The notes below the pieces were generated by a model. The model did no database searches. It was not told the DNA's origin and was given only the letters and a program-made list of their open reading frames with translations. The translations under genes were made by a program, and so were the position numbers. Positions 17,861-55,820 of a DNA stretch of 64,000 bases are shown piece by piece (position 1 is the first letter of the stretch; each line of letters opens with the position of its first letter). Location of the stretch: the NCBI GenBank assembly GCA_016748015.1, contig JAAOMT010000577.1, positions 285,854 through 349,853 of the forward strand, read 5' to 3'. The DNA is from Geosiphon pyriformis. Its lineage: Eukaryota; Glomeromycota; Glomeromycetes; Archaeosporales; Geosiphonaceae.

Positions 17861-21361
<3,501 letters not shown>

Positions 21362-21505
21362 ATTCACTATAAAATCCAAGAATTACAGCACAATTAAAAG
21401 CATTTTAAAGAAAGCTCAAGAAGAAAAAATTGCTTTATTTGTTTTTAAAATCAATGATACCCAAACTCTTTAGAAATATCTGAATAAAGAAAAAATTACT
21501 TATAA
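21362..21505 (+). pseudogene. Unknown coding fragment, left copy
   Basis: Reads KNYSTIKSILKKAQEEKI, FVFKINDTQTL, a TAG stop, then KYLNKEKITYKIY. The same text occurs inverted at 32885-33116 and is better preserved there. The left copy differs mainly by added A/T. I do not recognise the family. It marks the left edge of the less A+T-rich island. Confidence 0.6.
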
Positions 21506-21624
21506 AATTTATCTTTGCCATTGCTTTGCTTATAATATATTAATTCTTTCTAAACAGTTTTTCTGTACTATTATAATTTTAATTACTAAAGTAACTAAGA
21601 TAAAAATTAGTAATTCACTAATTA

Positions 21625-22527
21625 TTATTCAAAAACTCAACTGTTTCTCTCTTGTATTTGCAGAAATATTAGTTTTTTCTTTAAATGATTATTTTTTATC
21701 TCTAAAACAACAATAGTAAAGTCTTCATTTTTTAGATCAACAATATTAGTCTCTAGATGGTAAATATTGGGAGCTTGGAAGTAATTGTTACAAGCAAATT
21801 TTGGTAATATATAAGAGCTGTTGGGAATAATTTCACTAATTTTCTTAATTGAAAGGGAATGGTTATTAATATATTAATCAAAATTGGGATAATGTTCTTT
21901 AATATAATCTCATCTAGTAGATTGAACTAATTCTTGTTCTAAAACAACCTTAGTTTCAATAAAATCAAACTTGGCTTGTGGAAATTGTCCCCAAGTTTTG
22001 TCAAATTTTTTCTTTTTGCCTATTGGATACCTTTCGCATGGTTTTTTTTTAAAGGCTGTTACAATAATTAATTCTTTAAACAAATCATCCTTTAAAGCTT
22101 GCAATAATTCTTTATTTAGTGATAAAGGGGGCGATCGGTCATAAAAAGAATGCTGCTCACTATAATGTTGAGTTTCCTTTTCATTTCTTATTCTTTTTAA
22201 TTCTCCCGAAGCTAATCTTTGAATATTTGTCTTCTCATTTGGGTCATCTTTATCAATGTAAGATCATTCTCATGAATTTAATACATCAGCATTGATGGTT
22301 GAGCCATGACCTTTAGGATTGTGAGTAGCAATTTCCGCTTTACTTCAAAATCTTTTAAAATAATCCTTAAAAGAAAGATTTTTCTTTCCCGCTTCTCACA
22401 ACAAAAAAGGTTTACTGCTTTGTAAACATTCATCTTAATCACAAATAATTTTTAATTCTCTCCCTTTGAGTTTGACTTGTTCTTTGATAAGAGTGTAAAG
22501 GGAATCAATTTTGTTTTGATTATTCAT
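21625..22527 (-). pseudogene. HAD-like protein gene using UGA as a sense codon
   Basis: A frame of 301 codons from ATG 22527 to TAA 21625 is open apart from six TGA and two TAA codons. TGA falls at 22396, 22345, 22270, 22264, 21910 and 21637, in contexts such as PFLL-x-EAGKKN, KDYFKRF-x-SKAE and NS-x-E-x-SYIDKDD that look natural with Trp. TGG occurs once. The N-terminal ICD-(stop)-DECL has the DxD spacing of HAD hydrolase motif I, with TAA in the variable position. The late stretch NFD-(stop)-YINNHS, then SYILPKFACNNYF and NIYHLETNIVDLKNEDFT, could be the HAD end with its acids changed to Asn. The two TAA codons can be CAA after C-to-T change. The gene lies 51 nt after the transposase-like gene on the same strand, an operon-like spacing. 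HAD assignment is tentative; the UGA reading is well supported. Confidence 0.72.
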
Positions 22528-22578
22528 ATTTCTACAGCTTTGGTATTATAAATATGTTTTATTTATTGACAGTGTAGA

Positions 22579-24328
22579 TTAAATTGGTTCTGGACAAGTG
22601 ATATCTTTGAATTCATCCCGGACAAATGGACGAATATTGTGATAAAGGTATTCTTGCCTTCTGTAATCCAAAGGAGGAGGGGTTAATACTAGGATTGAAA
22701 AGGACTTAATTTCTTTGGTAATTTCAGAAACACTTGCTTTTCTAGTTTTTAACAGATTAAATTCAGTATACGAACCATTAGCAACCAGCTGAACTTTGAC
22801 AATACCAGGTTTGGCTGCTTCAAATACAATATGCTGATATTTTTGTAAACCACTCAATTTTTTAAAGAAAATACCTAACACAGAATTAAGATCTAAATAT
22901 TGAAAACCTTTGCCGTTTTCATAGCACTGAGCTTTGTTTAATCCTGCAGTACTTGACATTTTCACAACCTTAACAATATGATCCACACAATCTACCGTCG
23001 TTTTTCGATAAAGCCTTTTAATCAATCCAAAACTGCCATCACATTTAAATTTAGTATGTCCTGGTACCATGAAATTTAATTCGATACTTTCATAATAGCC
23101 GCAGAATACTAAATATAGGTAAAATCAAATAGTGGCATTATTTTTATTCTGTCCTCCCGCGTTACCGCAAGTAATCTTTAGATGTTTTTCGCCTTTATTC
23201 AATCGTTTAATCCCATCGAATACCATGCTTAGCGTACCATTAGGACCTTTGCCGATAATTTCATCTTCATCGAGAACGTAATTAATTTGTTCACGTACTG
23301 CTTCATCTTGGATACCAAATAAATGTACTTTACGCGGACTAAGATAATAAATCTTACTTACCTGTTGATCGGAATGGGGAACGTGAACGTTTTGTGCTCA
23401 ATCGTAACTGTAATGCGCAGTCGCGTCAATGCTACAATAGGCTTTATATCTTGTTATAAAATGCTCGTTTTACTAATTTTCTCTGTTGTTCTGCTAATTT
23501 CGTATTTTTGTTGTAATAGTTTCTCTCTAACTTAGCTTTAACTAAATGTTCTTTGTATTTTTTCAGTAAATCTCTTGCTTCTTCTTCCTTGCGAGCATTA
23601 TACTGCAAGTCATTCCGAAAATGTTGGCAAGTATCGCATAAATCTGTTCTCGGACTCATAATTTGAATATAAGGCGTTAATTGGTGTCATAACTTACGAA
23701 ACGCATCATATTTTAACAATTTCAACGTGCTATCGTTTTCGAGGCCTGCGATAAAATCATGATAAACCGATTTATAACTCGTTTCGGCTGGCAATAATGT
23801 AAGCGATTGAGTAATGCGATTAACATTTCTACCAGGACTTGGTAACCCATGAATTTCAGCATAGTTTTCAAGAAAATTCTTCACAGATGTAGCAACAGTT
23901 ATATCAATGGTTATCTTGGTTTTCCATCGTGGCACCTTTTTTACATTACCATGAACACGTGGTATTATACCATTCGTCGCTAGGTGGTTTCTGACGTTTT
24001 CGAAATGAGTGCGACTAATTCCTAACATATTGAGATACGTTTTCTGGCAGAGAGGCGTATTGCGATCTCAATAGTAAAAAGTTCTCTTATTAGTACGCGT
24101 TTTCTTTTTAAGACGTCGGCTGGCCGTTATTCCTCCACCATTCATTGCTTTCAGCTGGGCCATTAAAAATATATCTTGCTCGGATCTAGAGAGGGCTTGA
24201 AACGCTTCACGTAATTCAGCAAAATTCTCTCTCGGAATCATTTTTGAGCAACCACAACTGCATCCTATTTCCAAGAAACGCATGGCTTTTTCATATTCAG
24301 TCGAACCGTTATAATTATAGTTTTCCAT
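22579..24328 (-). pseudogene. Transposase-like protein (DUF7869-type) with UGA at Trp positions
   Basis: The order of motifs is that of a eukaryotic transposon-derived family I recall as DUF7869. It begins MENYNYNGSTEYEKAMRFLE with an early CSCGCSK. Then come CQKTYLNMLGIS, NGIIPRVHGNVKK, FLENYAEIHGLPSPGRN, SPRTDLCDTCQHFRN, KYKEHLVKAKLERNYYN, SPRKVHLFGIQDEAV, CGNAGGQNKNNATI, FMVPGHTKFKCDGSFGLIKR, and an end at DITCPEPI. Four TGA codons interrupt it, at 24068, 23687, 23398 and 23125, in the contexts FYY-x-DRN, FRKL-x-HQL, SYD-x-AQN and NATI-x-FYL. Homologues as I remember them have Trp at these places. No TAA or TAG interrupts the frame outside one frameshift near 23,440. The only TGG is in PRWKTK. 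The frameshift makes the copy inactive unless it is a sequence error. Confidence 0.75.
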
Positions 24329-24678
24329 ATACAGGTATTCCTATATATAATTTTATGTATAATCCAGGCGTATATTCAAATAGAACATTAATTTAATTTC
24401 GTTGATTGAAATTTAAACTGATTGACCATAATTTCTCCTGTATAATTAATTCATCAAACATTACTATTTATATTGATACATTCCAAATTCACATTCTTTG
24501 CAAATGATAATACTGATCAAATCATTCTTATTCTACTCACTTCATCAACAATAATACACTCAACTGAACAAGATACATGAAGTCTGAGAAGAGCTCAAAT
24601 ATATGGGTAGCATTTTTTATTTAATATAAGTCACTGACATATCACACAGTATTGAAGCCATTATCTAGCATGTACAAG
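24329..24678. other. Intergenic, nothing recognised
   Basis: No coding, repeat or RNA signal seen between the transposase-like gene and the kinase relic. Confidence 0.5.
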
Positions 24679-24956
24679 TCATAAGCTGGCAGGGTGCCAA
24701 TCAATATCAGGATTCAGGAGGGGTGGGTAAACAACCTCTCCAACCTTACCAGACCCGTCAAAGTCTATTATCTTTACTGAATGAGGTTTGAAAGTCTCAT
24801 ATCACCATGCACAAAACCCTGGTTATGCATTTTCTTTACTGACTCTATTGCTTTCTTCTGTATGAACAGCTTTTTGTCTTGAGCAAGAGAAGATAGTGAG
24901 CTATATTCCCTCAGCTGTTCCATAATCACAACACACCAAATGTTTCCACATCCCAT
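24679..24956 (-). pseudogene. C-terminal fragment of an atypical protein kinase
   Basis: Protein kinases transfer phosphate from ATP; the catalytic loop and Mg-binding Asp motif lie in the C-lobe. The text reads IESVKKMHNQGFVHGDMRLSNL, with HGDxRxxN as the catalytic loop. A one-base frameshift follows, then SVKIIDFDGSGKVGEV (DFD in the DFG position) and YPPLLNPDIDWHPASL to a stop. This form is typical of kinases attached to Crinkler-type proteins, which are numerous in Rhizophagus (family knowledge). The N-lobe is missing: the fragment begins where the RING relic on the other strand begins, so a rearrangement joined the two. Confidence 0.72.
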
Positions 24957-25650
24957 AAAAAGCAGTCACCGTCTATCGTGTGGTCATATTTTTCATTGTA
25001 TCTGTGTTGAGAAAAAACTATTACTTTCGCGAAAAGAATCATGTCCTTATCCTAACTGTACGTCATCAATAATTGGTAGAATGGAAAAACATCTCACGAT
25101 AGTATCTCAAGGAAATCCGGACGAGGATATGGTGGATGTGAATGACTCGTGAAGGGAGAATACTCCCATATCTGAAGCCGAACATATCGCTCAAACAGTA
25201 AAAGTGCAAACTTAGGGCCTAACAAAAGATCTCTCAGTAAGGAAGCGAATTAAAAAAGAAGACTTGCCCTCACTAAAGAGACTTATATCTAAATTGACCG
25301 CTGAAACTTCTGAGACTTCTAAAATAGCTGAAGCATACAGTAAAAACACAACGGATCTTTTACACCTCAATAATATCATTACTCATGCAGAATCCCGAAA
25401 CGAAAGCACAAACTGAGAAGTTATTCATTGCTATTATTGTTTTGGCGATATTCTGTCACAGCGATTAAACTATTATAAAAGTTTAGAATGCGGTGACTTA
25501 TCGGTTAATGAAGTTCGAAAACAATTGGGGACAAAATCTCAAACGACACTACGTAAAAGAACTCAAAGGGTATTTGCTCTTCTTAATAGCATTTTCATAG
25601 ATAGGGAGATATTTGTAATCATGTGTTTACTGCGCCTGTGAACTAATGTA
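24950..25650 (+). pseudogene. RING-finger protein relic
   Basis: The start shows LSCGHIFHCICVEKKLL and SCPYPNC, the second half of a RING-type zinc site (CGHxFHxxC...CPxPxC). After a TGA the frame continues with ISEAEHIAQTVKVQT, RKRIKKEDLPSLKRLISKL, HLNNIITHAESRNES, HCYYCFGDILSQRLNYYKSL and NEVRKQLGTKSQTTLRKRTQ. I recall this tail following RING domains in an expanded Rhizophagus protein family; its function is unknown to me. Three stops and a missing 5' part mark it as a pseudogene. It starts head-on against the kinase relic. Confidence 0.65.
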
Positions 25651-25711
25651 CTTCACCGTTAATTGGCCCACTTCTGAATTAGAATGTGATTTAGCTTAAC
25701 AAATTTTCCTC

Positions 25712-25738
25712 CTCAGGAGTTTTACCTGATTTGGGAGA
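25712..25738. repeat. Inverted repeat, left arm (27 bp)
   Basis: The segment beginning CTCAGGAGTTTTACCTGATT is the reverse complement, with two differences, of 27592-27618. The arms enclose 1.85 kb holding a decayed coding region and the LINE insertion, so they may be the ends of a DNA transposon. No target duplication was identified. Confidence 0.75.
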
Positions 25739-25930
25739 CCAGTTCTAGAAAATTCAAGCAAATATCACAATGACGCTTTTATTGATCCAAACACTGCAGT
25801 AAGAATCAAGCTAAGAGTTGAAATACACTTTTACGAGTATATACTTTCAGAATCCACGGGGATCCATGCAACTTTGCAAAGCCGCTAGTTTAATTTTACT
25901 ATTGCTGTACACTTTGTTACACACGTTTCA

Positions 25931-27500
25931 GAATGAGCTCAAAACTTGAAGCTAAAGATCTACCTTGCCCTTTGGAACCTCTCCCTATTGATCTCACACC
26001 TTCCCTCCATCCTCCATCATCCACTCATATCTTCCCTCAAACATTAAACACATTGCTCGTTTAATCCAATCAGCTGTCCTCTGGACCATTTGGATCTCCT
26101 ACACTCAAACATCCTTTGGCTCCTCTAATCCCCCCTCTAATCCTGAAGCTTCCTCCTCCTTTATCTCCATCCTCCTTTCATATAAAATTACTACTTCATA
26201 CTTACCCTGGCCTTCCACTAACTCCATCACCAAAATCCTCTCTCATAACTCTTCATCTAACATTACAAATACATAAACATTCCCCTATATTAATATTAAT
26301 ATATTTCTTTACTTAAATAATAACACTAGTAACACAATTAATCCCTCATTCCATATATTTTAATCTGGCTATCAAGCCAAGCTCTTTGTTGCACTTCTAT
26401 ATGCTTGCGTGTATGTTAAAACTAGCTTTAGCAGTATTCTGTAGTTAGGCAATAAAGTTCTAAATTATAAAAAAAAAAAGATCTACCTTGAGTATGCGTC
26501 TCTTTCCAAGGATAGTCAGTTAGCACAAATGTGAATTAAAGAAAATCATAGGTGGCGACATGCATCAGCTAGTGCAACAGCGAAACGACTAACGGAAATG
26601 GCTGAGTATTTTCCTGAACTATCTTCATTGCTTAATTACTCTTTATGTGAACGGCATTACAACTAGATTGTCAAAAGAACTTTTGTTAAACAGAAAAATA
26701 AAGTGGATAATTCAAGTTTTTTAGATTCGGAAGAAGTGGAGAGGAAAAGAAGAAAGCTTACTGATGATAACGACGATTGCAGCAAAAAGGTTTTTCCGAT
26801 TTTGGAGTAACGTTGTCTCTGAGGAAAATCATACTGCGGAAGGGTATTTAGAATAGACCCAAAATCAAACAGATTTCATATTCAGGTTAAGTATGAACAA
26901 ATTTTTTTGTATTTACAAGCAATTATTAACTTTCGCACTGGAGTTCGTTTTAATAGGCCTTCATTAAGACTTGCGGCTAGATGAACATTTGCGCCAATTT
27001 GGTCTGCCTGACGATATCCTATTTACCGACAAATCGAACTCGCCGATGAAGAACAGAGATTGCGATTAAGGCCTGAAATTGATAAGTTGGTTCAAGAAAG
27101 AATTGTGACTTCACGGTCTAAACTTTCCGATCAACATCAAGGCCATGGTGCAATACTGGAAGAAATTAACAAATGCTCAAATCATTAGTCCCTTCCATAC
27201 CTTCACAACGGCATTGGGAAATCGCTGCACGTAATTATATCAAATTTTTGAAATTGCGTACTAACCTTTTCAATGTAATAGGGTATACTGAAAATGAAAT
27301 ACATAGGCCTCGTACAAGTCCCAGCTTCATTGCAGAATCACAACGACTTCGGGTTCGAATAAGGAAAACGCAATTTGTACCCGAATGCTGATAATCGTGT
27401 TTTCCAAAATATAAGTGGGGAATGGATTCTAAGTGAAGAAATGAAGCTAACTAAACATTATTATGCTTTTGGCAAATCTTATCCATTATCAATTTTTTAA
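25931..27500 (+). pseudogene. Unknown protein relic split by the LINE tail
   Basis: Before the insertion the frame reads MSSKLEAKDLP. After it, pieces in changing frames read RHASASATAKRLTEMAEYFP, ELSSLLNYSLCERHYN, SSFLDSEEVERKRRKLTDDN, then HLRQFGLPDDILFTDKSN. At 27.05-27.48 kb further pieces follow: RPEIDKLVQERIVTSRSKLS, VPSIPSQRHWEIAARNYIKF, LKLRTNLFNVIGYTENEIHR, FQNISGEWILSEEMKLTKHY and YAFGKSYPLSIF. I recall such text from repeated, uncharacterised Rhizophagus proteins and give no function. It sits between the 27-bp inverted repeats and could be their cargo or two separate relics. Confidence 0.55.
25968..26479 (+). mobile_element. 5'-truncated LINE (non-LTR retrotransposon) tail
   Basis: The insertion is bounded by identical 14-bp target duplications AAAGATCTACCTTG (25954-25967 and 26477-26490; the last A's of the tail overlap the second). 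It ends with AATAAA at 26451 and an A-run at 26469-26479. One frame reads KHIARLIQSAVLWTIWISYT, then an Ser/Pro-rich stretch and SITKILSHNSSSNITNT to a stop, like the end of a LINE reverse-transcriptase ORF. A 3' untranslated region follows. This is standard target-primed integration with 5' truncation. The insertion splits the coding relic that continues at 26491. Confidence 0.85.
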
Positions 27501-27591
27501 GTAATAGTTATATTCTCGACACGTGACGTTTAGACTTCCAATGCTAGAAATTTCTAGAATTGATTTTTAATCATAAATGGTGTGATCTGCA

Positions 27592-27618
27592 TCTCCCAAA
27601 TCGGGTAAAACTCCTGAC
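27592..27618. repeat. Inverted repeat, right arm (27 bp)
   Basis: The segment beginning TCTCCCAAATCGGGTAAAAC pairs with 25712-25738. It lies 78 bp before the start of the intact 13-exon gene. Confidence 0.75.
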
Positions 27619-27695
27619 TGGAGTAGCCAATGGGCAATATGTGATAAAAATGTGACCCGAAAAAAAAAGCGGACACGCAACTTTACGCGGTCAAA

Positions 27696-30600
27696 ATGAA
27701 ACTAGATAAAAACGTCCGCGAAATCCTAAGTGATCCAGGTAAACGTTGGTTCTTTGCTTTTTTATCGATCACGTACGTTCAGGTAAATATTGGTGTATCG
27801 CTCCCTATATTTGTTAAAACTTACAGCATACTGGAGTTCGATTTCAAAACCATCGTTGATTACGTATTTAACTTATCTCTCACAAACAACAAAAGATTCA
27901 CTCTCGAAAGACAAGATTCAAAGTCAATACATATCAGAACTAACCACCATCAAACGAAGTTACGAGGAAATGAGTGAACAACACGAAATAATCGAAGAAG
28001 CTTTGGCGAGTTTTGCAGTAAGTTAGTTTTTTGTTATGGTCTATAATGTACATGGGTAGACATTCGTTTTGTTGCGCGAATGTTGTGGCGCATTATCAAC
28101 TAGTGTACTGGCTGCGGCTACGTATATGAAAGGCTGCGGCTCCGTTGAGAAATGCCATTGCTGCTCTATTAGCTAGTATACTGGCTGCGGCTACGTATAA
28201 CGAAAGGCTGCGGCTCCGCTATAGATACACACCATGTATATGCTAGGTTTGAGTAGGCTTAGTTGGTTTAGAGTGAATTCGTTCTGTTCGTATTAAAACA
28301 TTAATATTCTACATTGAAATTTGGCGAGAACGAGAAAACGTCAGAGGATGTGAAAAATTTCTGGGAAGACAAATATTTGGACCAGAAACTCTGTACATTA
28401 GAGAAGAAAACAAAAATAATCGAGGTAATGTTTGGTTAAAATTCTAAGAATTTTTATTCGAAGCAAACTATGATTATTAATAACCATTTAGGCCGAAGGT
28501 GTTATGAATTTTTTGCAAACGGGAAACGAGCGTTTAAACGATGCGTCGAAAATGGTTCATAAGTCTCACTTAAATTTTCTGGAAAGAAAAGAAGCAAAAT
28601 ATTATGAACAAAAAGAGAATGATGCCAATAAGGTAAAGAGATTAGCTTTTTAAGATTTCAGGAAACTAACAGCACAAACGGTATAGCACTGTGTTTTGCC
28701 ATCGCAAGCCCCGAGATGCTAATTCAACAATTTATATAATTATTCGTATATACCAGGATGAGTCAGCTACATGTAGCCAAAATTATGAGAGAAAAAGACG
28801 AAACGCTGACGATAACAGTCAAGACGAGTACACTACACCCAAGAGACGAGCACTCGCAGATGATAAATCATATACGCCATGCGGAACTGATGATAGTGTC
28901 GGTGTCATAATAATGTTAATTTGTTTGTGTTTTTTTTTTCATTGCTCCTTCTACAACTGACAAATCTACAAAGTATGCGAGCGATGAATCCGACGACGGA
29001 AGTGATGAGGAGTGTGGATCAAAATTAATTGTGGAAGAGATTAGCTTTGACGAATTCATTGATCAAGAGGACAAACCTGTAAGTGTTTCATTCTACCGCA
29101 ATCAATTGCAAGTGTGATCTCATCAATATAATGGAGTTTTTTAGTTCATTTTCAAAGCGAAGAATATTTCATCATTATTCAAATCATACCGATGTGAAGC
29201 ATTGACTAAGTCGAGAAAATCTGGATTATCAGTTACGCAGGATTATCGGGAGATTTTGTGAGCAGATTTCTAAACAGTCTTTCATTACAACGACATTGTT
29301 AGCGTTGATATTTACTCTTTGAAATATTTAGGAGTATATCGCATATTCTTTTATTACAAGTTGACGACTATTCCGACATGCAAATAAAAACGTTTTCCAG
29401 AGATACTCTTGAGGATCTAAGAAAGGATATCAGGGCAAGGATTTTTGGGAAGGAAAAAATATCTAAAGAATTCAAATCAACTTTTCAGGAATATGTCGAG
29501 GTACAATGCCTTTATATTATAATTTGAAATATTATTATTGCGTTTGCTAATAGTTTTACTTTAGACTGTTCTTGATGACGAAGATTGCGGACTGGATAAG
29601 CTTTGGAAACTAATAATAGAGTCTTATCCAAAAACGTTTGATAAGACCGAAGAGAATGCGCTTTTCCTGAAAATGCAATTATTGTTTCAAAAACTGTAAG
29701 TATAATGTCAATTAAGCCTGACCTTAGAATACTCGTAACATTTATAAAATAATTTTTAACTATTTTGCAGAGCCAGTAATCTTTCAGTGCGTACATTAAA
29801 AGAAAAAATCAGTGAAGGGACGTTAGTAGCGAATTTTATTAGTCCTATATTACGGATCTTTCTACATAATGCTTCGGTTCATCCAACCACATGGCCGAAT
29901 ACGGCTAGCACTAGTGCAAAGATTCGTAAGCTTGCTAATAGTGATCCATCTCGTGCAAAACAGCCTGACATGATTGGGAAAGTTGTTCACAACGGTATTA
30001 TATAGATTTTTATAAAGCAAAACAGCCTGACATGATTGGGAAAGTTGTTCACAACGGTATTTATATAAAATTTTATGAAGGTATAAATGACATATCTTTT
30101 CTTTTTTACATAATAGGGAAATTTGCTTTTGAACTTATGTTTGGAGAAGTGACAGGCGAGGGCAGAAATAACACTGAAAAGAAGAATATTATTGACCTGA
30201 TTAGATTAGGAATGTTTATGAAGGACTCTATCGACTTGACTCTACACAAAGCAAATGTTAATTGTGTTTTATTCGGATGGCAAAGTATTGGTAAGCAAGA
30301 AAATTACTTTAAATAAAATTATTCGATCTGGCTAACAATTTATGCGATTTATAGTATTGAAATGGACTGGCTACATCATGGTTTTAATCGCACCTGGCGT
30401 CTACCTAATGGTAGAAGCTGGCAATATAGAATTGCCAAAGTCTTTTGACACCTGTAGCATGTTTTTCAATGGTTTAGATACTCTGCGGACATTTCAGGTA
30501 TAACTACAAACGGTTGTTTACACCTGATTTTCGTATACATTGACTAATAAACCGTCTCTTTAGGTGGCATATGAACGAACAGTAAAAGAAGTCCTTTCAG

Positions 30601-30704
30601 CTATGAATAAGAGTAGAGAAAAATCTGATGATGATAAACTCAAACAATGGTGCCGGTCGACACTTGGGACACCAGCGTTTAAAAAAATCATTTTTTTCAA
30701 GTAA
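27696..30704 (+). CDS. Intact 13-exon gene, unknown function, about 603 residues
   Basis: Exons at 27696-27738, 27827-28017, 28329-28424, 28492-28632, 28757-28897, 28974-29078, 29145-29257, 29332-29500, 29565-29695, 29771-29994, 30117-30290, 30355-30497 and 30564-30704 join in phase with GT-AG introns and no stop until TAA 30702. The N-terminal third is helical and charged (SKDKIQSQYISELTTIKRSY, QHEIIEEALASF). An acidic, basic and Ser-rich linker follows (RKRRNADDN; YASDESDDGSDEEC). The C-terminal half holds KQPDMIGKV, FAFELMFGEVTGEGRN and KKNIIDLIRLGMFMKD. PD...E...K spacing vaguely recalls PD-(D/E)xK nucleases, but I do not claim it. All Trp codons are TGG. I recall related proteins as an expanded family in Rhizophagus. 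The exon 5/6 splice sites and the first exon are the least certain parts. Confidence 0.82.
28100..28218. repeat. Two-copy G+C-rich repeat inside an intron
   Basis: Two copies with a 73-bp period read CTAGTGTACTGGCTGCGGCT, then ACGTATA, then GAAAGGCTGCGGCTCCG. Each contains GGCTGCGGCT twice. They occupy the second intron of the 13-exon gene and account for its unusual length (311 bp). Confidence 0.9.
29954..30061. repeat. Tandem duplication (63 bp) across an exon-intron junction
   Basis: GCAAAACAGCCTGACATGAT and the following 40 bases recur 63 bp downstream, including the donor site AACG/GTATT. Splicing from the first donor (29994) to 30117 keeps the frame; use of the second donor would include an in-frame TAG. 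Confidence 0.93.
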
Positions 30705-30742
30705 TTCAATGTTCATGCGCTGCAATCGACTTTTTATTATCC

Positions 30743-30934
30743 TTATTCGTCGGTTATCATTGTAAATACCTTACGTCCAAAATCTTGAGCATATTCGTCT
30801 AATTCTGCGGGCATGTCCCAACCTTTCCGAATGTATATAGGATCCTCTTTTGTTTTAGTCAAGTCAATAACAATAAAATCTCGGCCTTGCAAATTCTTAT
30901 TTATCGATTGTATCAACGGCGTTACCCTCGCCAT
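30743..30934 (-). CDS. Small unknown ORF, 63 codons
   Basis: Starts MARVTPLIQSINKNLQGRDF and ends RKVFTMITDE; it includes IVIDLTKTKEDPIYIRKGWD. The composition is that of a real protein, with balanced residues and little Lys/Asn bias. Immediately upstream, past a run of ten A's, another frame reads KKPELVDIVRRYTKK. The ORF may therefore be the end of a longer gene frameshifted at the homopolymer. It converges on the 13-exon gene, with stop codons 39 bp apart. I do not recognise it. Confidence 0.45.
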   Translation of the reverse strand: MARVTPLIQSINKNLQGRDFIVIDLTKTKEDPIYIRKGWDMPAELDEYAQDFGRKVFTMITDE

Positions 30935-31159
30935 TTTTTTTTTGTATACCGCCTAACTATATCAACCAATTCAGGTTTCTTTTATTAGTTTTGGACAAGA
31001 GAAAAGCTTTGCGTCATGTAGATTGAACTGATGTTTGAGTGACGTTCACTCAGTGAAGTAAGGGATAATTTTTTTGTTTTTTTAGGCTCACTACATAAAT
31101 CTTCGAATATAACAACCGTCCTTCTTTCAGGAGAAAAATTCGTCAATCTTTAGTATTTT

Positions 31160-31399
31160 GTCGGGTTTCATCGATCGGAACGTAACATTTTCGCGATATG
31201 GCTTTGGACTATTCACAACGAGTGCACGGCAAAGGCTGTTAAATGGCATGATTTTCACCGCCGTCACGATACCCAACAGGCAGTTGATGAACGCATTCAA
31301 CAAGAGCAAGCATCTGCAGAGAACGATCCTAACAACCCTCACAAGATCTACTTCCACCATCCTGAGCGACCTAAACCAAATAGCGAATCACAAATATAA
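31160..31399 (+). pseudogene. Unknown coding fragment
   Basis: One frame reads [19 protein letters not shown], then [20 protein letters not shown] and [18 protein letters not shown] to a TAA at 31397. Composition and continuity suggest a true C-terminal coding piece. Longer open frames overlapping it in the other registers look like shadows. No start or upstream exon was found; function unknown. Confidence 0.45.
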
Positions 31400-31659
31400 T
31401 CTTCCCTTTGCAGAAGGCAACTCAGTTAGAGTCTGCTATGCTCGTAAAGTAGATGGTGCTACAACCCCCAGCGACAATTCAACGACAACAAACAACCTCT
31501 TGCATTAGACGTAATGACTGCTTGCAATGAAGAATGGAACTAGATCTATTTGATTTGACAGGCAATAATTCTCCTTGCGGTAGTTTCATTATTTCGATTA
31601 ATAATTACATCTCGATTTGCATACAATTAAAAGCGAAAGATCACCGAAATCAATATTAT

Positions 31660-32205
31660 TTATGGTTTGGGGATAGAAAGGGGACGTAATTTGCTTACGA
31701 TTTTGGAACGATCAAGAATATATATCCATTCCCTCCCTGCATTAATTCGTACTTGCTTTCGCTCAATCCCAATTTGTGAAAACTTCTTTCCCGCAACTCT
31801 ACTAGTTAATGGCTTTTCTCCATTACCACTAGATCATGTAATATAATTCTGGTATAAATTCTCACAGCTTGGTTTATTAATTTGATCCTCAGACCATGGC
31901 GCGATATGATCAATTATGAATCGAATTGGATTTGGTAAACGCTCTCGCATCGTCTCCACTTTCATTTTAGTGGTAGGAATATCTTGTGGGTTCCAATCTG
32001 AAAGATCAAGACTAAGTAAATATGCCATAACTATTCTAGGCGCATCAGGACGCAATACCGGAATTGTTCCAGGCTTTTTAGATGGTTGTCGTATTAGATA
32101 TCCTATCCAGTGCCAGAAATATTTATTAAACTCTTCATTTCCTTCGGAGATTATATTTTTTGCATGCCATAAAATTGGATCCATAATAGCAGAATTAAAT
32201 TTCTT
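31660..32205 (-). pseudogene. D5-like primase/SF3 helicase relic lacking its ATPase core
   Basis: The family (DUF5906/D5-type) couples an ATP-driven helicase to a primase in large DNA viruses, plasmids and related mobile elements. Visible here are DPILWHAKNIISEGNEEFNK, YFWHWIGYLIRQPSKKPGT, then directly a C-terminal part with LLSLDLSDWNPQDIP, LPNPIRFIIDHIAPWSED and CENLYQNYIT. After a TGA it continues with NGEKPLTSRVAGKKFSQIGI and REWIYILDRSKI, to a TAA at 31660. The Walker A (GxxGxGK) and Walker B region expected between PSKKPGT and the C-terminal part is absent, so about 200 residues are deleted. The TGA sits where homologues tend to have Trp, but the six other Trp codons are TGG, so here I read it as ordinary decay. 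The virus or mobile-element source is unknown. Confidence 0.68.
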
Positions 32206-32252
32206 TTGTTTGTTGGGCTTTGAATCCTAGAAAAAGATTGAAGAACTTGGTA

Positions 32253-32638
32253 CTAGGTAATGAAGTGTTTGGTGAGTATGGTAAACATGTTATCTACCCA
32301 TTTTTTAAGCGCTCCGATCGTTTTTCTCGAGAATTGGCCTTTTACAATAAAAGCGATAATGCTTTTTCTTCCGTGAACTTTGTGGTATTTTATAACCATT
32401 TTGTTGAATAAGACTGAGTCCAGCTCAGATATTTTATCAAGCAACTTGTTAAGACCTTCCCACGAACAAGTTATTCTTGATAAGTATGTTCGCTCAACAA
32501 GCAGCTGGTATTTTGATTCATTGTCCTTGATTTTATCGCTTGAAAAAGCGTTTGAGTCATAGTTCGGACTTGATTGTGAGTTTTATGGTAGAGCAAAGTA
32601 CCAGCGATAAGCGTGATCAGCAGCAGTAACTTGAACAT
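32253..32638 (-). pseudogene. Membrane-anchored small protein, frameshifted
   Basis: Starts at ATG 32638 with MFKLLLLITLIAGTLLYHKT, a clear signal peptide or membrane anchor. After about 27 codons the reading shifts by one base near 32555 and goes on as DNESKYQLLVERTYLSRIT, WEGLNKLLDKISELDSVLFN and FIVKGQFSRKTIGALKKWVD to a TAG at 32253. The body looks helical. I do not recognise the family. It lies just upstream of the helicase relic on the same strand. Confidence 0.5.
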
Positions 32639-32884
32639 TTTGTTACATCATAACCATGGGCTTTAAACAGTTAATTTGCCGATCAAACGTAATGATTTAT
32701 TCTAGTGTTTCCTTTTTATTACCTTAAATACCTACCAAAACGATCCAGGTTTTGCTGGTCATGAATTGTGTCAGATTTGTAGTACTTGGGCACAGCAAAT
32801 CAAAATTATCGTATTTATACTCGAACGGCATACAAAGAATTTGTCCCGGTTATCAATAATTATTAACAATAATACATAAGAGGT

Positions 32885-33116
32885 TTATATTTCTTCAAGT
32901 TTTCGTTTCTTTCTTGATTCATCAAAAGTTGGGGTTAATGTTCGTTTATGGTTTATTATTTTTCGTTCTTGGTAAATTTCATAAGTGATTTTTTCTTTGA
33001 TCTAGATATTCCTGGAGAGTTTGGGTATTATTGATTTTAAAAACATAAGGCGTAATTTTCTCTCTTTGAGCTTTCTTTAAAATGCTTCTAATTGTGCTGT
33101 AATTCTTGGGTTCCAT
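32885..33116 (-). pseudogene. Unknown coding fragment, right copy
   Basis: From ATG 33116 it reads MEPKNYSTIRSILKKAQREK, YVFKINNTQTLQEYLD, then after a one-base shift KEKITYEIYQERKI, NHKRTLTPTFDESRKKRKLE and EI to a TAA. It is the inverted, better preserved counterpart of 21362-21505. The N-terminal helix pattern could be a DNA-binding helix-turn-helix, but nothing proves it. Confidence 0.55.
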
Positions 33117-34973
33117 GGTGGATTTTATGTAAATTAGTTTCATATTAATATTTTTTATATAGAGATAATCCTATATTAATCATGTTATGGTTTATATTCA
33201 TCACATTCTGGTATGATAAAGTGAATATTAAAATTTAACAAGTCTATAAGTTATGAATGAGCACCATTATTACTTTTCAAAAACGTCATCAGTCACACTG
33301 GTCAATTTTACAGCCACTTCATAATAACCCCTCATTTATAGAATGTCACTTTGTCTGGTTTTGTTGCAGTCTGTCCCATATTAGATATATAAAATATCTA
33401 ACTACTTAGGCTTTGTTAATAAAAGAAATAATATTGATACTAAAAATTAAAATTGTTTATAAAAAAAAGCTTAATTTCTAACAATTTTAAGTAATTTTAA
33501 ATTTAACAGATTTTTAAATAATTTTAATTTTAGTATTTTAATTTTGTTTTTAGATATTAAAGCCATTATATTAGGATTATATCGAAATTTACTTTTTGTT
33601 TCTTGAATTAAGTTCTGCTTAATGGTTTGCTATTTTGTTTTTATAGGTTTATATTATTAATAATTATATTAAGACTAAACAAAAAGTTTTTTTTTCTTGG
33701 CTTGTACTTTTATCTTTAATAAACACATCTATTAGTTTAAAAATTAATATTCTATTGTTTTAACTAAGAAATCTTCTTTAAAAAAGCCTACATAAATTTG
33801 ATTAGCATTTTAATTAAGAGTTTAATTATTATTGTTTTTATTGTTTTATTAATTGTTATTTTTTAAATTTAAAGAAAACATTAGAAAATTGTTATAGTTT
33901 TATGCTATATGACCAGTATTTTTATATTAATAGCAAATTAAAAAACTTTGGTTTTTAGGTTTTGAATTATACAAAAACTGTTGAGACTAATTATAATAAA
34001 ATTAGTATTAAAGTTTTAAAAATCTTTGTTTTTAATTATATTAAGCCAACTTTTTTTATAGTTTTATAGTAAGTAGTTGATTTTTTTTTCTATATATATC
34101 TTTTTTTCTAAGTTTTAAATATTTATTATTAATATTTTTAGTATTTTTTCATATTTTTTATTAATATTTTAAGTCATGTTTTATTCTAACTTATTATATA
34201 TTTATTATTAACTTTTGAATTTTTTATTACTTTATGTTTCTTAAAATACATATTATATTTTATTTTTAAGAATAAATTATTAATTTTATTATTTAATATT
34301 GTTTTTATTATAGTATTAATTAAGTAAGAAAATTGTTATATTATTAAAGATTTAATCTTAATAATAGCATTTTAATTCAAAAAATATTTCAGTTATATTT
34401 TATTTATAAACTTTTAAATAATTTTTTATCTTTGCTTTATATAAATTAAGCTTTTGAATATTATATATTTTCAATTGTTAATTAAAAAAATTCTGGTTAT
34501 AATTTTGTTAAATTAATTTTTAACTGATTGTATTTTTTATGTTTTTATAAAGTTTAATTATTATTTTTTATAAAATTTACATTAAGACTACTATATTTTA
34601 TAGCCTATATGATATTTTTTAATATAAAATTAAAAACTAATTCTTCTCTGAAATTTTTTATCTATTCTAAGTTAAATATTATTATTGATTACATAAATAC
34701 AAATCCAACTCTAAAAAAGTAATAAAACCAAGAAAGTTTATAAAATATTAAATATAAAAAATGAAAAACTTATGTTTTATAGAAAATTCAGGTTATGAAA
34801 TTAATTAGCCTTAATATTTTGTTATATCTTTGATAGCACTTTATGTTTCTTCCAAAATTAAGGCTTATTAATTTAAGTTACAATTATTATGCATAGCAAT
34901 AACTCTTTATTGAGATTTTTCTACAGTATTATAACAAGTTGGTATATGTTTTTTGATCATAGGATAAAATAAT
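33117..34973. other. A+T-rich stretch, nothing recognised
   Basis: The composition changes sharply at about 33.12 kb from the island to nearly pure A/T. No open frame with a recognisable motif was seen. Confidence 0.5.
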
Positions 34974-47739: not shown

Positions 47740-49450
47740 TTGGGATTTATGAAATTTTTATTCCAGTCTTACAAAAGTTATTTGGAATTAACAAATAATA
47801 ATTGGCCAGCAGAATTAGTTTTTAATTGCTATGTTAATAAAAAAATTGTATATTATTTAGGAGGCCAAGAAAATTCAGAATCTGTCTTCAACAATTTCTT
47901 CAGTAAACTACTCCAAAACACTATATTACTACAAAATCATCTATTTGCACTAATAATTACAAAAATAAACAGGAAAATTGAAAAATACACTAAACAAAAA
48001 TTCCCTATCATTTTTGTTAACAAAAAAAAAAAGATTACAAACACCAGCAGGAACTCCAAAGCAAATACAAGTACCTACTTGAAAGAAACAGAGATTTGAT
48101 TTACCTGCTAATCTATCATATTATTATACACCCAAAAGCATTATCAATATAATATCAATAGGCATATTTACAGCTAATGTAACAACACTACTAAACAGAA
48201 TTCCATTCCAAAGTAAACAAAAAAAAGCAGAATTTTTAGAAACCTACAGCAATTATTTTAAGGAATTTAAATTGTGATCTCCAATACCATCAGAAGTTTG
48301 ATCATTGTCATTACAACCAAATTTCAGAGCTGCTAGTTCTTGGGAAATAACCAACTCTGAGAAAGAGAAAAACAGTGATCAAGAAATTAATAAGCAAAAT
48401 CCAATTTCAGAAAACCCAGAAATTCAAACTTCAATTATTCCAACTCAGCAAAATCAGAACAATCCAAATACCACTCCTATTGTTCTCCAAAATTTACTTT
48501 CAGTAATTGTAATTAATCTACTACCAGTTTTACCAATTGTCAAACAGCAACAACCACAGTCACAACCACCATCCCAACAGCAATTTTAACAGCAACCACA
48601 ACTGCAACAACAATTACTATTAGCACCAATAATATATATACCCATTACCAAAATTGAGAAATTGACTAGTAAAAAGAACAATGCTCAAGTATGGCTCAAT
48701 GACATAGAGAAAGCCATTGTAGCTAATGGATAGAACAATGTCAAAGCATTATAGGCAATCCCATATTTTCTCTAGAATACTACTAATTTATGATATTAAA
48801 GACTGATTCAGAAACCCCAAGATTTCAATACATTTAAAGTTGAATTCTAGAGATATTTTAGTAATAATAACAATATTAATTGCCTAGCCAATACTTTCAC
48901 AACTATCAAACAAGGAGAAACTAATTATTACTTACCTAGAATGCTTCCATAAAAATTTGCACCAAATTCAAGCCATTGACACTAATTAGTTCACAGTAGC
49001 CCAAATATTGAATCAGTTCATTTGTGAATTATGTAGCAGTATCTTATAACACATATGTTTATTACATCTAGTCACACTTCAAGCTGCAGTCACATATGCT
49101 AAAAACTTTAAAGCAGTCAAATTAAAAGCCAACCACACTCAGGCCATAAATTTAGTAATAAATGGATCATTTGACTTGGATTCCAAATTAAAACAATTTA
49201 GTAATTCAATTAATCAGAAAATTGAGAGATACTTAGCTAACAATTAAGCAATCTATCAACTCCCACAATGTTACAACAATTCAGAAAACTTCAGTCATTC
49301 TTAAAATCAGATGTATCTATCATTATTAACTAATCAACCATGACAACAGGAGACATGTATGTATTATAATTGTGATAAACAAAACCATATAAGAGCCAAT
49401 TGTCATAACAAATTTAATAACAACTATTAACAATTAGAAAATCAATATTG
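47740..49450 (+). pseudogene. gag region of the inner element
   Basis: Gag forms the particle and binds RNA. The first 119 codons are open (MGFMKFLFQSYKSYLELTNN...). A Gln/Pro-rich section follows at 48305-48589, and a zinc knuckle at 49356-49403 reads CMYYNCDKQNHIRANC. In a normal CX2CX4HX4C knuckle the first Cys would be where Tyr now stands, one G-to-A change. Stops and frame changes lie between these parts. Confidence 0.75.
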
Positions 49451-49899
49451 AAACCTTGATTGCAGATTTTAAACTCCAAATTACCACCCAAATTAAAATC
49501 AATATCAGTCCTATTACCCACCAATGACACAACAAATATACTCATCACCAATTTATTAATTTTCAATACCTGTAATATATCAACTACAGCCACAAGTAAT
49601 TTATCAACCTCAACCATTTTCAACACTGCCACAAATTTCAATTCAAATATCCAAAAATCCAAGACCAAGAATTACCAACACCCAACAAAACTAGTGATCA
49701 GTAATAGTAATGCATTAATTAATATCTAGTACATCACAACAGCCATTAAGGTTATACTAGCAGAGTTCGAAAACTGGGTATAACTAAACTCAAATTCCCA
49801 GAACTATTTAAGTTTTTTGATTACTTCAGAAGACACATCACCCAATAAACTAGAATTCAACCAAAAATAGCCTTTTATTAACAACATACTGCCAACAAT

Positions 49900-50290
49900 G
49901 ATTACTAAAAATGAATCACTTACTGCCATCTTTCTTTTTGAACTCAAAGAATCAATTAAAATGCTGCTATTCAGTAGAGCTGCCCTAAAATTAAAACTCA
50001 TCACTACAATGTATACTGATGTCAAAGTTGATGATCAGTTCATCAAACTAATCTTAAACAGTAGATTAACTGACAGCATTATCACCTAACAACTCATGAA
50101 CTAATTAAGTCATCAAGTTGATCATGCTGTCAGTGCACAAATAATCACTGCTGATAAAGTGACAAAAACTCCAATAGGCAAAATTGACAACTTTTTCTTT
50201 GAAGTTAGTGGTATCATCGCACCAATCAAAGTTCTTGTCATGGAAGCTACCCAGTATCAAGCACTTATTAATAATAACTGGCTGTCTAAA
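49900..50290 (+). pseudogene. Aspartic protease region of the inner element
   Basis: Reads TTMYTDVKVDDQFIKLILNS and RLTDSIIT. The active-site motif normally DSG/DTG appears as NSR (about 50056-50064), so the catalytic Asp is lost. Confidence 0.75.
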
Positions 50291-50599
50291 ACCAATACTA
50301 TCCTTGACTGGATTATATAAGAGCTATAACTCAGTTGAGATAACCACCAAATTCGAGTACCTGCCACTTGCAACCATTTTAAGACAGACACCACTCAATT
50401 GCCACCACTAATCAAATTTGATGAAGAAGAAAAGAAACCTATCTGGAAAGCATACCAAGTCTTATGGGCTAACACTGACCACAACAATCTACCACCAGTA
50501 CTTACATAAGAAGAAGAAAAAAAAAAAAAAAAAAAGATAAAGAAGAAATTCAAGCAACCACCTCTATATATACAACATATACTTCTATCACTCAAACAC

Positions 50600-51320
50600 A
50601 GCCAAACTATCATCAACCCAAGTTAATTTGTGTTAATTGTAACAAGAAATTGTTAACAATAAATGCATGTTGTAGTAACAATAAAAAATAACCAATGACC
50701 ACAAAATATTACTGTTACCTATGCATCCTTAAACAATTTGAATAACTGAAGTAACAAAAAAAATAGGACAACAAACCATGCTTGGCTTGTGAAAAAACTC
50801 TTCTCAACAAAAAAATATGGAACAACATTCCTGGAAGAGAAGAAATATATGATAAATTGTGTCAATACATGATTCTAATTAGCAATTGGGTACACAAAAA
50901 AACACCAATAAATGCTGCTTAGAAAAAAGCAGTAAAATGCTTAAATAGTTGTCTACATGATGATAACAAAATCTGGTGAATGACTTTTACCAAAATCAAA
51001 AGCATGTCAAAAAAAGAAATAAAAGAAATCAAAAATAACTTGTTAGAACTCATAGAACTCGATTGGACTCCAAACTTCAATATTGTCTTTGACACTATGA
51101 ATCCAGAATAATTCTATGAATATTATCAAGATCTAGCACTCATTAAAGAAGAGCAAAAACAATGTTTAGAACAACTAAACACTCAATTATGTGACTACTG
51201 TTTGATTCTATATGACTTTCAATATTGTAATGAGTGTGATTTTATTTACAATCTACCACTATACATAATCTACATAATTTTAGAGAAAGAAAAACCAATT
51301 AGCAACTGCACATTGGAATC
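50600..51320 (+). other. Cysteine-rich region between protease and reverse transcriptase
   Basis: Contains CVNCNKKLL and ACC (about 50628-50672), YYCYLC, PCLAC (about 50783), and at 51190-51237 CDYCLILYDFQYCNEC, a CX2CX8CX2C motif. The last motif recurs in the outer element at 44383-44430 as CKHCLISNNFKYCDNC. An Asn/Ser-rich acidic stretch follows (51340-51430). Standard Ty3/gypsy polyproteins do not have such a region between protease and RT. Confidence 0.65.
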
Positions 51321-52319
51321 AGAATTAATGTTCAATTCCGATTCAAACTCTGGCAATGACAATGAAAACAATGATTCTAACTCAAATTTAAATAACAATA
51401 ACAACAATTTGAACTTCAATTATAACTTTGAACAATACATTGCACTTTTTGATCTTTCTAAGAAGCAGGAACTAAAATGGTTTAGCAATAATAATGAAAG
51501 TATTATGCCAAAATGAGCACATAATATTGATACAGAGTTTGATCTAAAATATTCAGAAAAATATGTCATCAAATTAGAATTACATTTATGAATTTACATT
51601 AATCTGAAAGTAGCACTAGAGATTTTAGCAACAACCATAATACAATTAGCATCTAGATCTAGTTTAGCAAAGAAGAAAATCAACATCAGAGGAAGAATAA
51701 TTAATGTAGGATATGTAAAAAATATTATCACAATGCTACAAAATAACTTAGAAAAAAAAATATTATTGAACCAAATGAAAAGATAGCACAGATAATATTC
51801 TTGTCTTTGATTAAAATAGCTCAGTTAATATTAATAAGAAAAAGAGAGAAATTAGGAATGACAGCAAAAAAAATCAGTGGATTTGGATCCACAGATAGAG
51901 TAGATATACTAGTTAATATAGCAAAAAAAGAGGTTATTGACAAGAAAAAAATTATTTCCACCTGTCAATCAATTTTTATTCTACCATATAACCAGTACAT
52001 ATTAGCCATAAAAAGAAAAGTAAAAGATCAGACCCAAATTTTTGAAGTAGAAACTATAATTTGTGAATCAAGAAAGATTAAAATCTTTACATATCAGCCA
52101 AAAGTCTAAAAAACATCAAAATTCCTATCTATAATACAATTAGAGACATTATAGAAATACCAAAAAAAACCACCATTGGATATTTAAGTACTGAAGTTGA
52201 AAACCAACTGTTAACCACCATTTCAGATTTTTCACAACTTTGCAGATATGTGGATATTATATTACAAACAATATATAGACAAAAAGAATGTTATTTGCTC
52301 TAACCAAAACAATTGGAAT

Positions 52320-53710
52320 AAATGAACTTAAGAAATTTAGACCCACTTCAAAAAATTCAGCTCAAGATATTGCTTAACAATTTTACTGACATTTTTGCCA
52401 ATAAAAACAAATTTGGCTGAACTGATATTATCCAATATTAGATCAAAACTGGAGATGCAATGCCAATTAAACAGAGAGCATACTGAGTACCACCAGCCAG
52501 CCATGAAATTATCCAACAAAAAATCAACAAAATGTTGGACAACAAGTTAATTCAACTATTAATAAGTCTATGGTTATTACCAATAGTACTAGTTCATAAA
52601 AAGAATGAAAAAATCCACTTTTATGTAGATTACAGAAAACTCAACAGTGTTATTTATGAAAACAGCTATTCAACTTCACGAATTCAAGAATTATTTAACA
52701 CTTTCAAAAAAAAGAAATGGTTCTTCACATTGGACTTGAATAGTGGTTACTAATAAGTAGCCATGAATCCAGCTAACAAAGAGAAAACTGTATTTACTAC
52801 TAGAGAAGAAAATTTTGAATTTAAAATTATGCCATTTAGCTTAACCAATGCTTCAGCCATATTTTAATGGCTTATGAAAATTGTTTACACTGAACTACTA
52901 TGGAAATCAGTAGTTATTTATCTAAATAACACCAATGTGTTCTCAAAAATATTTGATGAGCATCTGCATTATCTGCAGCAAATATTTGAAAGACTATGAA
53001 GAACTGAATTAAAACTGAATGCAACCAAATGCTTTTTTGGCAAAACAAAATTAAAATTTTTGGGATATGTTGTCAGCAAAGATAGTATTAAAACAGATCC
53101 AAACAAAATCAAAATAGTTAAGAACTTTCTAGTACCTATCAACTTGACTGAATTATGAGCATTCTTGGGATTTGCTGAATACTACTGCTGCTTTATACAG
53201 AACTTTTCAAAAATAGTTCAATTATTCTACCAATTTCAAGCCAAGAATGTAAAATATAGATGAACTAAAGAACAACAAAAAGCTTTTAACACATTAAGAA
53301 AAAAGCTCATCTAAGTACCAGTGTTGATCTATTCAAATTACAACAAATCATTTATTATTACCACTAATACATCTGGCCAAGCATTAAGAGCCATACTATT
53401 TCAGAGAAAACTGGATGGATGAGAACATCTAGTAGCATACACCAGCCAAAGTTTAAGTTCAGCTGAAAAAAACTATGAAATATCAACATTAGAATACTTA
53501 GCTATCTATTAAGCAATTATGAAATAGAAGAAATACTTAAGCCAGAAATTTGACATATATACTGATCACAAAAGATTAACATCAATTCAGAAGCAAAAAT
53601 TTGGAGATGACCATCATGTTAGATAAAAAATAGAACTTTTACTATTCAAATATACTATACATTATAAAAAGAGAAAAAAAAATAGAAATACTGATGGCTT
53701 GTTGTAAATA
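52320..53710 (+). pseudogene. Reverse transcriptase and RNase H of the inner element
   Basis: RT copies RNA into DNA; RNase H removes the template. RT text includes LPIVLVHKKNEKIHFYVDYR, KLNSVIYENSYSTSRIQELF, KWFFTLDLNSGY and IMPFSLTNASAIF. The catalytic YxDD motif reads YLNN at 52919-52930, both Asp changed to Asn. The palm is followed by KCFFGKTKLKFLGYVVSK and a connection. RNase H has FIITTNTSGQALRAILFQ, YEISTLEYLAIY and FDIYTDHKRLTSIQ. Stops occur at CGA, CAA and TGG positions. Confidence 0.88.
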
Positions 53711-53929
53711 AGATAAATCTAAAAACATTTCAATCCAAAAATACAACAAAAGATAAATATTAACAACTCCAATACTATATTAAGACCCAATAGTTCCAGA
53801 AAAAATTATTTTAAAAGAAACAAAACAACATAAAACAACAATCCAAATATTTTATTACTCACTAAAATATATTATATAGGAAAAACAGAAAGAATTCAGA
53901 TCAACTATTCAGAGTAATTACAAAACCAA

Positions 53930-54800
53930 AAAAAGAAACAATACTATACAACATGTACTCAAATCTAACAGCAGGATATTTTCATAAAAAAGCAACCATA
54001 GAAAGAACCAAAAAAAGATATTACTGGCCATTTATGTATCCAGACATTATTCAATATGTCTAAAGTTGTGATGCTTGCCAAAAAAGAGAAAGAACAAGGT
54101 CCAGTAAACTATTGAGACCAATTAAAGTGAAACAACTATTTAATTAAATTGGAATTGACTTAGTCAGATTATTAACAATAACCAGCAAAGGAAATAGATA
54201 TATTATAGTAGTCATAAATTATCTTACTAAATGGCCAGAAACAAAAACAATTCAAAGAGCGGATGTAAAATTTATTGCCAAATTTGTTTATTAAGATTTA
54301 ATTTGTCAACATAGATGTCCAAAAAAATTGTTATCTGACCAAAAAACTCACTTTGTAAACAGAATATTAGCAGAATTAAGTCAAAAATTTGGAATCAAAA
54401 GACCATTGTCATTATCATATCATCCATAAACTAATGACTTAATTAAAAGATTCAATAGAACATTGTGTAAAACAATAGCCAAGATCAGCCAAAAAAACCA
54501 GGAAGAATAAGATTTGTTTATATCATCAATACTATTTGCTTATTAAACAATAAAACAAGATACTACACAAGCAACACCATTTGAATTAGTATATAGTAAA
54601 ATAGCAACATTACTAGTTAAAATAAAAGTTAACACATATTTAGCTAACCAATAACAGAAGACAATTTTCAAAAAACATTGTTAAGAAGAACATATAAATT
54701 AATAGAAACTCTAGAAAACAAATAAAGAAGAGCAGCTAATAATATTCAAAAGTCATAAGCAAAACAAAAAAAACAGCATGATAACTAATTACCAAATAAA
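53930..54800 (+). pseudogene. Integrase of the inner element
   Basis: The zinc-binding part reads AGYFHKKATIERTKKRYYWP and SCDACQKRER, with the first His apparently changed to Tyr. The core has IGIDLVRLLTITSKGNRYI (first Asp), LLSDQKTHFVNRILAEL (second Asp) and NDLIKRFNRTLCKTI, where the catalytic Glu of the family is Lys. Text resembling the usual post-core tail (FKWNGPFFIEKILGNRAYKL) follows near 54.88 kb. Confidence 0.85.
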
Positions 54801-55804: not shown

Positions 55805-55820
55805 TAAAAGAAAAAAATAA
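55805..55820 (+). promoter_or_regulatory. Polypurine tract
   Basis: TAAAAGAAAAAAATAA stands directly before the 3' LTR, the place of plus-strand priming. It is an imperfect tract. Confidence 0.55.

Follow-up and report, generated by a model that had tools for sequence, protein, structure and literature searches.

The window analyzed here is a stretch of 64,000 nucleotides from the Geosiphon pyriformis assembly GCA_016748015.1 (contig JAAOMT010000577.1, positions 285,854 to 349,853 of the forward strand). It contains two adjacent open reading frames (ORFs) on the minus strand, ORF A and ORF B, which carry in-frame TGA codons and lie between the terminal inverted repeats (TIRs) of a transposon (Table 1). 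A preliminary description, made from the sequence alone, had reported ten in-frame TGAs in two genes on the same strand, 51 nucleotides apart, with a single TGG in each. All ten are in frame at the positions given (for ORF A see Table 1; for ORF B 22396, 22345, 22270, 22264, 21910, and 21637, each coordinate denoting the lowest-numbered base of its minus-strand codon), and the spacing (22579 to 22527) as well as the single TGG per gene were likewise borne out. When UGA is read as Trp (genetic code 4), no stop codon interrupts ORF A between 24328 and a 1-nt insertion near 23455, beyond which the next frame is open as far as 22579. ORF B contains two in-frame TAA codons, one at 22435-22437, where eight of ten copies carry TGA and one of ten TGG, and one at 21874-21876. 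Because of the insertion in ORF A and the TAA codons in ORF B, the window copy would be nonfunctional under code 4 as well.

In the window we identified one worn member of a family of TA-inserting TIR DNA transposons, whose own genes use UGA as Trp and whose cargo follows the standard code. The element has the matched TIRs and the target-site duplication (the TA flanks) of a class II TIR transposon; the family TIR reads TGGGGCGTGCTGCAACAAAACCAGACAAAGTGAACAT. The two extended ends in the window are 79.6% alike over 406 aligned columns, and the GC content is 0.24 and 0.22 outside the element and 0.34 inside. The neighboring, presumably spliced gene, to which the preliminary description assigned 13 exons, does not belong to adjacent host DNA but lies inside the same TIR pair as ORF A and ORF B.

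Table 1. Features of the transposon copy, given in window positions.
Feature	Position	Strand	Remarks
Whole transposon, 12,240 bp	21139..33378	minus (transposase reads leftward)	flanked by TA at either end
Extended TIR, downstream end	21142..21511	+	decayed (G>A, C>T, A>T), with ORF C remnant
ORF C remnant	21342..21473	+	inside downstream TIR; ATG start now ATA
ORF B	21625..22527	-	6 in-frame TGA, plus TAA by decay; open under code 4 in copy L023
ORF A, putative transposase, DUF7869 (PF25273)	22579..24328	-	4 in-frame TGA and 1 TGG at Trp codons
ORF A Trp codon	24068..24070	-	TGA here; copies: TGA 26, TAA 4, TGG 1, gap 1
ORF A Trp codon	23687..23689	-	TGA here; copies: TGG 19, TGA 10, TAG 1
ORF A Trp codon	23398..23400	-	TGA here; copies: TGA 20, TGG 8, TAA 2, gap 1
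ORF A Trp codon	23125..23127	-	TGA here; copies: TGA 22, TGG 4, TAA 1
Standard-code cargo region	24400..32970		weak kinase-like and RING-like fragments and other exon-like frames
Weak kinase-like fragment	24774-24965	-	E 0.01, below Pfam cut-off
Weak RING-like fragment	24883-25149	+	E 0.007, below Pfam cut-off
Stretch 76-79% alike to nuclear repeat	26812..27445		at least 39 other places (40 of 145 candidates scored)
Extended TIR, upstream end	32973..33374	-	33346-33369 100% identical to family TIR
ORF C (MKLIYIKSTMEPKNYS...)	32979..33143	-	small element gene inside upstream TIR

A BLAST search of the assembly (124.7 Mb, 406 contigs) matched the region to at least 48 aligned pieces on 32 contigs, with identities of 71-100%. 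We compared 40 loci, the window's own included (L005-L007 were dropped, superseded by the longer L041-L043), and tabulated the five ORF A Trp codons in those 23 copies that retain over 1380 ORF A bases, leaving out copies with 1380 or fewer; insertions relative to the majority were removed from the codon alignments. The resulting 115 cells comprise 66 TGA, 41 TGG, and 4 TAA codons, 3 gaps, and 1 masked position. In the same copies the remaining 571 codons yielded 32 nonsense codons (TGA 8, TAA 18, TAG 6), 24 of them in the three decayed copies L017, L020, and L034. The pile-up of TGA on the five Trp codons is far beyond chance. Each of the 23 copies has at least two TGAs at these codons, and a quick copy tree requires at least 14 changes between TGA and TGG (1, 3, 5, 3, and 2 over the five sites). 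Since TGG is the sole sense codon at the five sites across the copies, a residue other than Trp at UGA was rejected.

Two copies, L027 and L029, encode a full-length ORF A free of frameshifts, TAA, and TAG, with three TGAs each, and these frames are full length under UGA=Trp only. As expected for code 4, UGA and TGG replace each other at identical sites, and the frames end in TAA or TAG; the nine open code-4 frames were selected for openness and are thus without internal TAA and TAG by choice. The assignment of UGA to Trp made in the preliminary description is therefore supported throughout the family by the TGA/TGG interchange, the open frames, and the constraint described below. Its placement of Trp at the transposase sites, which had relied on homologs, holds inside the family, where TGG stands at the same sites. 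In total, the assembly contains 35 places matching DUF7869, 28 of which lie inside the copies analyzed here; in all of the remaining 7, stops occur within the domain. No standard-code copy of the transposase was seen among the 23 long copies or these 35 places.

Under code 4, the ratio of nonsynonymous to synonymous substitution rates (dN/dS) between 12 copies, selected as better preserved (66 pairs), was 0.05-0.19 wherever dS was finite, and dS between subfamilies reached 1 to 3 or was saturated. When 32 copies were each compared with their nearest neighbor, dN/dS was at most 0.30 in 23 and 0.51-0.62 in the other nine, which we sorted by eye into three groups, each with its upstream sequence in common, i.e., copies that decayed in place. 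We infer that most of the divergence arose where the protein was under selection and that little was added after the copies died in the nucleus. The changes private to the window ORF A are balanced (75 in total, with 27 GC>AT and 30 AT>GC), and 52 of the 75 fall at third codon positions. A general excess of G-to-A changes, which the preliminary description had named among the findings that would speak against its own proposal, is not seen in the window ORF A. Of the differences from L012, 72% in L017 and 90% in L020 are GC>AT changes. In L017, the only copy examined for sequence context, C>T changes are commonest at CpG (36 of 66), and this CpG excess looks like methylation-driven decay. The GC>AT pattern of L017 and L020 is the look of nuclear decay in this genome, and the window transposase differs from it.

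These data bear directly on the explanation that neutral decay or repeat-induced point mutation (RIP) of a standard-code transposon produced the TGAs. The GC>AT bias of some copies and the TAA found at Trp codons in a few would suit such a process. However, TGA at the Trp sites is common to copies separated by dS above 1, with dN/dS of 0.05-0.19 and balanced substitutions, and the 15 copies selected for being free of other nonsense contain 47 TGAs at Trp codons, with all 406 CAA, CAG, and CGA codons intact. We give decay or RIP practically no credence and regard it as ruled out by the TGAs shared between such diverged copies, the low dN/dS, and the balanced changes; its earlier dismissal is thus confirmed on the scale of the family.

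A search with the inner 23 bases of the TIR, allowing up to 2 mismatches, returned 63 + 67 = 130 sites, with positions listed for the first of them, and 0 + 0 with the reversed-pattern control. As judged by eye, the flanks of the 11 elements with both ends readable are TA/TA in ten and TT/TT in one; three further elements have lost one end. The complete elements measure 7852 bp (C355), approximately 7196 bp (C309), 8594 bp (C294), and 12,240 bp (window). In addition, we observed short TIR pairs (L061-L066) with 353-513 bp between the inner repeats. All six of the six examined belong to one family with main matched stretches 69-89% alike, and they have only the TIRs in common with the four large elements compared. 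This family behaves as expected of miniature inverted-repeat transposable elements (MITEs) mobilized in this genome.

The dispersal of the copies also decides about an assembly chimera, previously considered the main alternative, or bacterial contamination. Contigs of endobacteria are indeed found in assemblies of this kind, according to excerpts from PMC11423566. Nevertheless, the copies are spread over 32 contigs as TA-flanked insertions in AT-rich DNA, one of them shows CpG-type decay, and an rpoB model found no match over its cut-off. The spread over 32 contigs together with the nuclear-type decay excludes the chimera as the main alternative, and we consider this explanation very improbable in either form.

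None of the known transposase models passes with ORF A; solely PF25273 (DUF7869) clears its cut-off, with an E-value of 4.5e-16 for the ORF A of L029. Three Asp residues, 311, 390, and 432, are invariant in five copies, with 41 residues between the last two. As far as the sequence allows to judge, they resemble a DDxD triad, which provides a lead. A sequence search of the PDB revealed no convincing relative of ORF A (best E 0.75), and the same search with ORF B led nowhere. ORF B matched no Pfam family either; we take it to be HAD-like by eye only, from its DWDEC motif. ORF A is the putative transposase of the element, which would provide a candidate function for DUF7869. With the Tc1/mariner-IS630 group the family shares the TA duplication (10 of the 11 readable elements), short TIRs, and MITE-like derivatives, and D311, D390, and D432 may correspond to the triad of that group. 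In contrast, ORF A passes the DUF7869 model alone and no Tc1/mariner or IS630 transposase model, and the present family has TIRs starting with TGGGGCG, several companion genes, and UGA=Trp.

Further code-4 genes accompany ORF A in other copies. In L029, ORF D (310 amino acids, 5 TGA), presumably coiled-coil-like as judged by eye, is followed after 9 nucleotides, a gap in the style of a bacterial operon, by ORF E (220 amino acids, 3 TGA), in which we believe to recognize Cys pairs and a coiled coil. In L078 (G000:C406:45500-51050) ORF D has 5 and ORF E 6 TGAs; here the DUF7869 core of ORF A is gone by an in-frame deletion, and ORFs C, D, and E are open under code 4. An element of approximately 5.2 kb on C330 (G000:C330:920972-926194) encodes a HIT-domain frame of 252 codons with 7 TGAs (PF01230, 2e-8) and a coiled-coil-like frame of 144 codons with 4 TGAs; the 4.5 kb of it that were inspected (L079, 920980-925500) showed no ORF A. 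ORF E had no relative among plasmids, and PHROGs gave nothing for ORF A and ORF C and weak matches for the other ORFs.

The cargo is of a different kind. We judged it to be spliced and fungal-type from its broken exon-like frames and from its protein families, which we take to be fungal. Upstream of ORF A, L041 has a frame of 516 amino acids with a protein-kinase domain, 3 TGGs, and no TGA; the kinase frame of L002 has 5 TGGs and no TGA, and both presumably lie inside the element. The elements on C309, C355, and C294 carry exon-like fragments, some of which are related between C355 and C309. Four of these cargo fragments gave no Pfam family over its cut-off, and a stretch of C355 cargo searched in the genome was found at no place outside its own element. 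Chaperonin, employed as a weak control for the host code, yielded 47 exon matches, 4 with internal TGA and more with TAG or TAA; these stops are present because the matches run through introns.

Since no standard-code transposase was seen, the protein must come either from a compartment in which UGA means Trp or from a recoding system in the nucleus. According to the latter explanation, a suppressor tRNA or programmed readthrough lets the nucleus read UGA as Trp, and the family would be an ordinary nuclear transposon with private recoding. All copies lie in a nuclear assembly, the cargo is fungal-type, the MITE-like family suggests nuclear mobility, and low dN/dS alone is silent on the translating compartment. 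On the other hand, with 3-7 UGAs per gene, efficient readthrough would be needed at each, the kinase frames of L041 and L002 and an RPB2-like frame of 327 codons use TGG (3, 5, and 2) and no TGA, and ARAGORN detected no tRNA-Trp in the 40 loci or the window. Nuclear recoding therefore appears unlikely to us. The sole tRNA reported by ARAGORN is a tRNA-Gly (GCC) in the flank of one copy (L019:4872-4942).

The code, the constraint, the TIRs, the TA flanks, the mixed gene content, and the MITE-like derivatives in the nucleus were observed directly. A Mollicutes-related endobacterium would suit the code as well as the lack of introns and the dense packing of the genes. We consider it reasonably, though not strongly, probable that this is a TIR transposon with proteins produced where UGA is read as Trp, likeliest in a Mollicutes-related endobacterium, and with DNA that is mobile in the fungal nucleus. 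ORF A and its companion proteins would be translated in the endobacterium, the protein and/or the element would enter the fungal nucleus, and there elements would insert and acquire fungal genes, only to decay later for lack of a transposase, which the nucleus is unable to produce. The preliminary description had proposed that DNA of an endobacterium was transferred to the nucleus. The bacterial-looking code and the tight spacing agree with this in part; a one-off endobacterial insert was rejected in favor of a multicopy TIR transposon with fungal-type cargo.

Several results weigh against a bacterial home of the element proteins, which is suggested by gene structure and code. None of 14 control prokaryotes has DUF7869, which makes a eukaryotic ancestry of ORF A itself probable. 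Two short ORF A peptide patterns, one including Trp, found no relative in GTDB, and ORF A has none in IMG/VR, phages, or plasmids. A 16S-primer pattern detected no endobacterium among the genomes searched, and the rpoB model gave three weaker matches below its cut-off in the assembly. Searched in the genome, tRNA-Trp patterns returned two matches with 3 mismatches or none; as the normal tRNA-Trp was missed too, this search is silent on UCA. The passage from bacterium to nucleus has to be assumed, and a search for the empty site with one flank pair matched only the two flanks themselves. Likewise, the HIT family is widespread, and the HIT gene does not settle a bacterial origin, because its PDB matches include a Nit-Fhit fusion protein and adenosine 5'-monophosphoramidase, its NCBIfam matches (actinobacterial ATP adenylyltransferase, mycoplasma HinT) lie far below the cut-off, and its seven plasmid matches (25-28%) come from a collection of bacteria only. 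Judging by the molecule names, the organisms of its PDB relatives are not only bacterial.

The same findings lend weight to another UGA=Trp reservoir, namely fungal mitochondria, a mitochondrial plasmid, or a eukaryote with this code (some ciliates, some trypanosomatids). Mold mitochondria use code 4, and the absence of DUF7869 from the control prokaryotes and the presumably not only bacterial HIT relatives point the same way. Yet the operon-like spacing of ORFs D and E and the several small intron-free genes seem to suit bacteria better, and a transposase made in mitochondria would not be expected to act in the nucleus. COX1, sought as a mitochondrial gene, was not found in the assembly. We regard such a reservoir as rather improbable, too.

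If elements arrived repeatedly from a diverse outside pool and captured host genes between their TIRs, the endobacterial reading could be extended to a gene shuttle between endobacterium and fungus, with the UGA=Trp genes expressed in the Mollicutes-related endobacterium, the spliced standard-code genes in the fungus, and movement in both directions. This cross-domain shuttle is possible, and we put it forward tentatively. Torres-Cortes and Naito, both in 2015, reportedly described genes exchanged by Mucoromycota fungi and their Mollicutes-related endobacteria. Such endobacteria are known partners of these fungi according to excerpts from PMC10507103 and PMC11423566. The transfer cases in the excerpts from PMC10507103 concern the same kinds of partner, with single genes passing from fungus to bacterium; here, in contrast, a mobile element combines both codes and has many nuclear copies. 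Searches of the open-licence literature, as judged by titles and the openings of abstracts, turned up no description of an element of this type, with UGA=Trp genes and standard-code cargo.

Mitoviruses also use the UGA=Trp code. Their endogenous copies, as portrayed in the opening of the abstract of PMC4393810, are likewise foreign sequences settled in the nucleus; however, they are fragments of RNA viruses and not a TIR DNA transposon with MITE-like derivatives and cargo. The cargo may tentatively be likened to Crinkler (CRN) effectors; Pfam found no CRN domain in it. In the excerpts from PMC5289972, CRNs are kinase- or nuclease-type effector genes tied to transposons, to which the kinase-domain frame of L041 bears a likeness; they differ from the cargo here in that Pfam detects no such domain in the latter.

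If the endobacterial reading is true, a nuclear transposon whose enzyme is unreadable by the nuclear code relies on an intracellular symbiont for its proteins, and the family would offer a concrete vehicle for the reported gene exchange between these fungi and their endobacteria. The codon dialect tags each gene with the compartment of its selection, and the direction of traffic is therefore testable.

Two minor observations concern the surroundings of the elements. The right flank of the C309 element (L060, G000:C309) contains an inverted-repeat-like stretch, TTTTGAGGGG...CCCCTCAAAA, possibly one terminus of a different mobile element. In the window, positions 48000-56000 show a strong GC and AT skew, with a GC content slightly above that of the surroundings.
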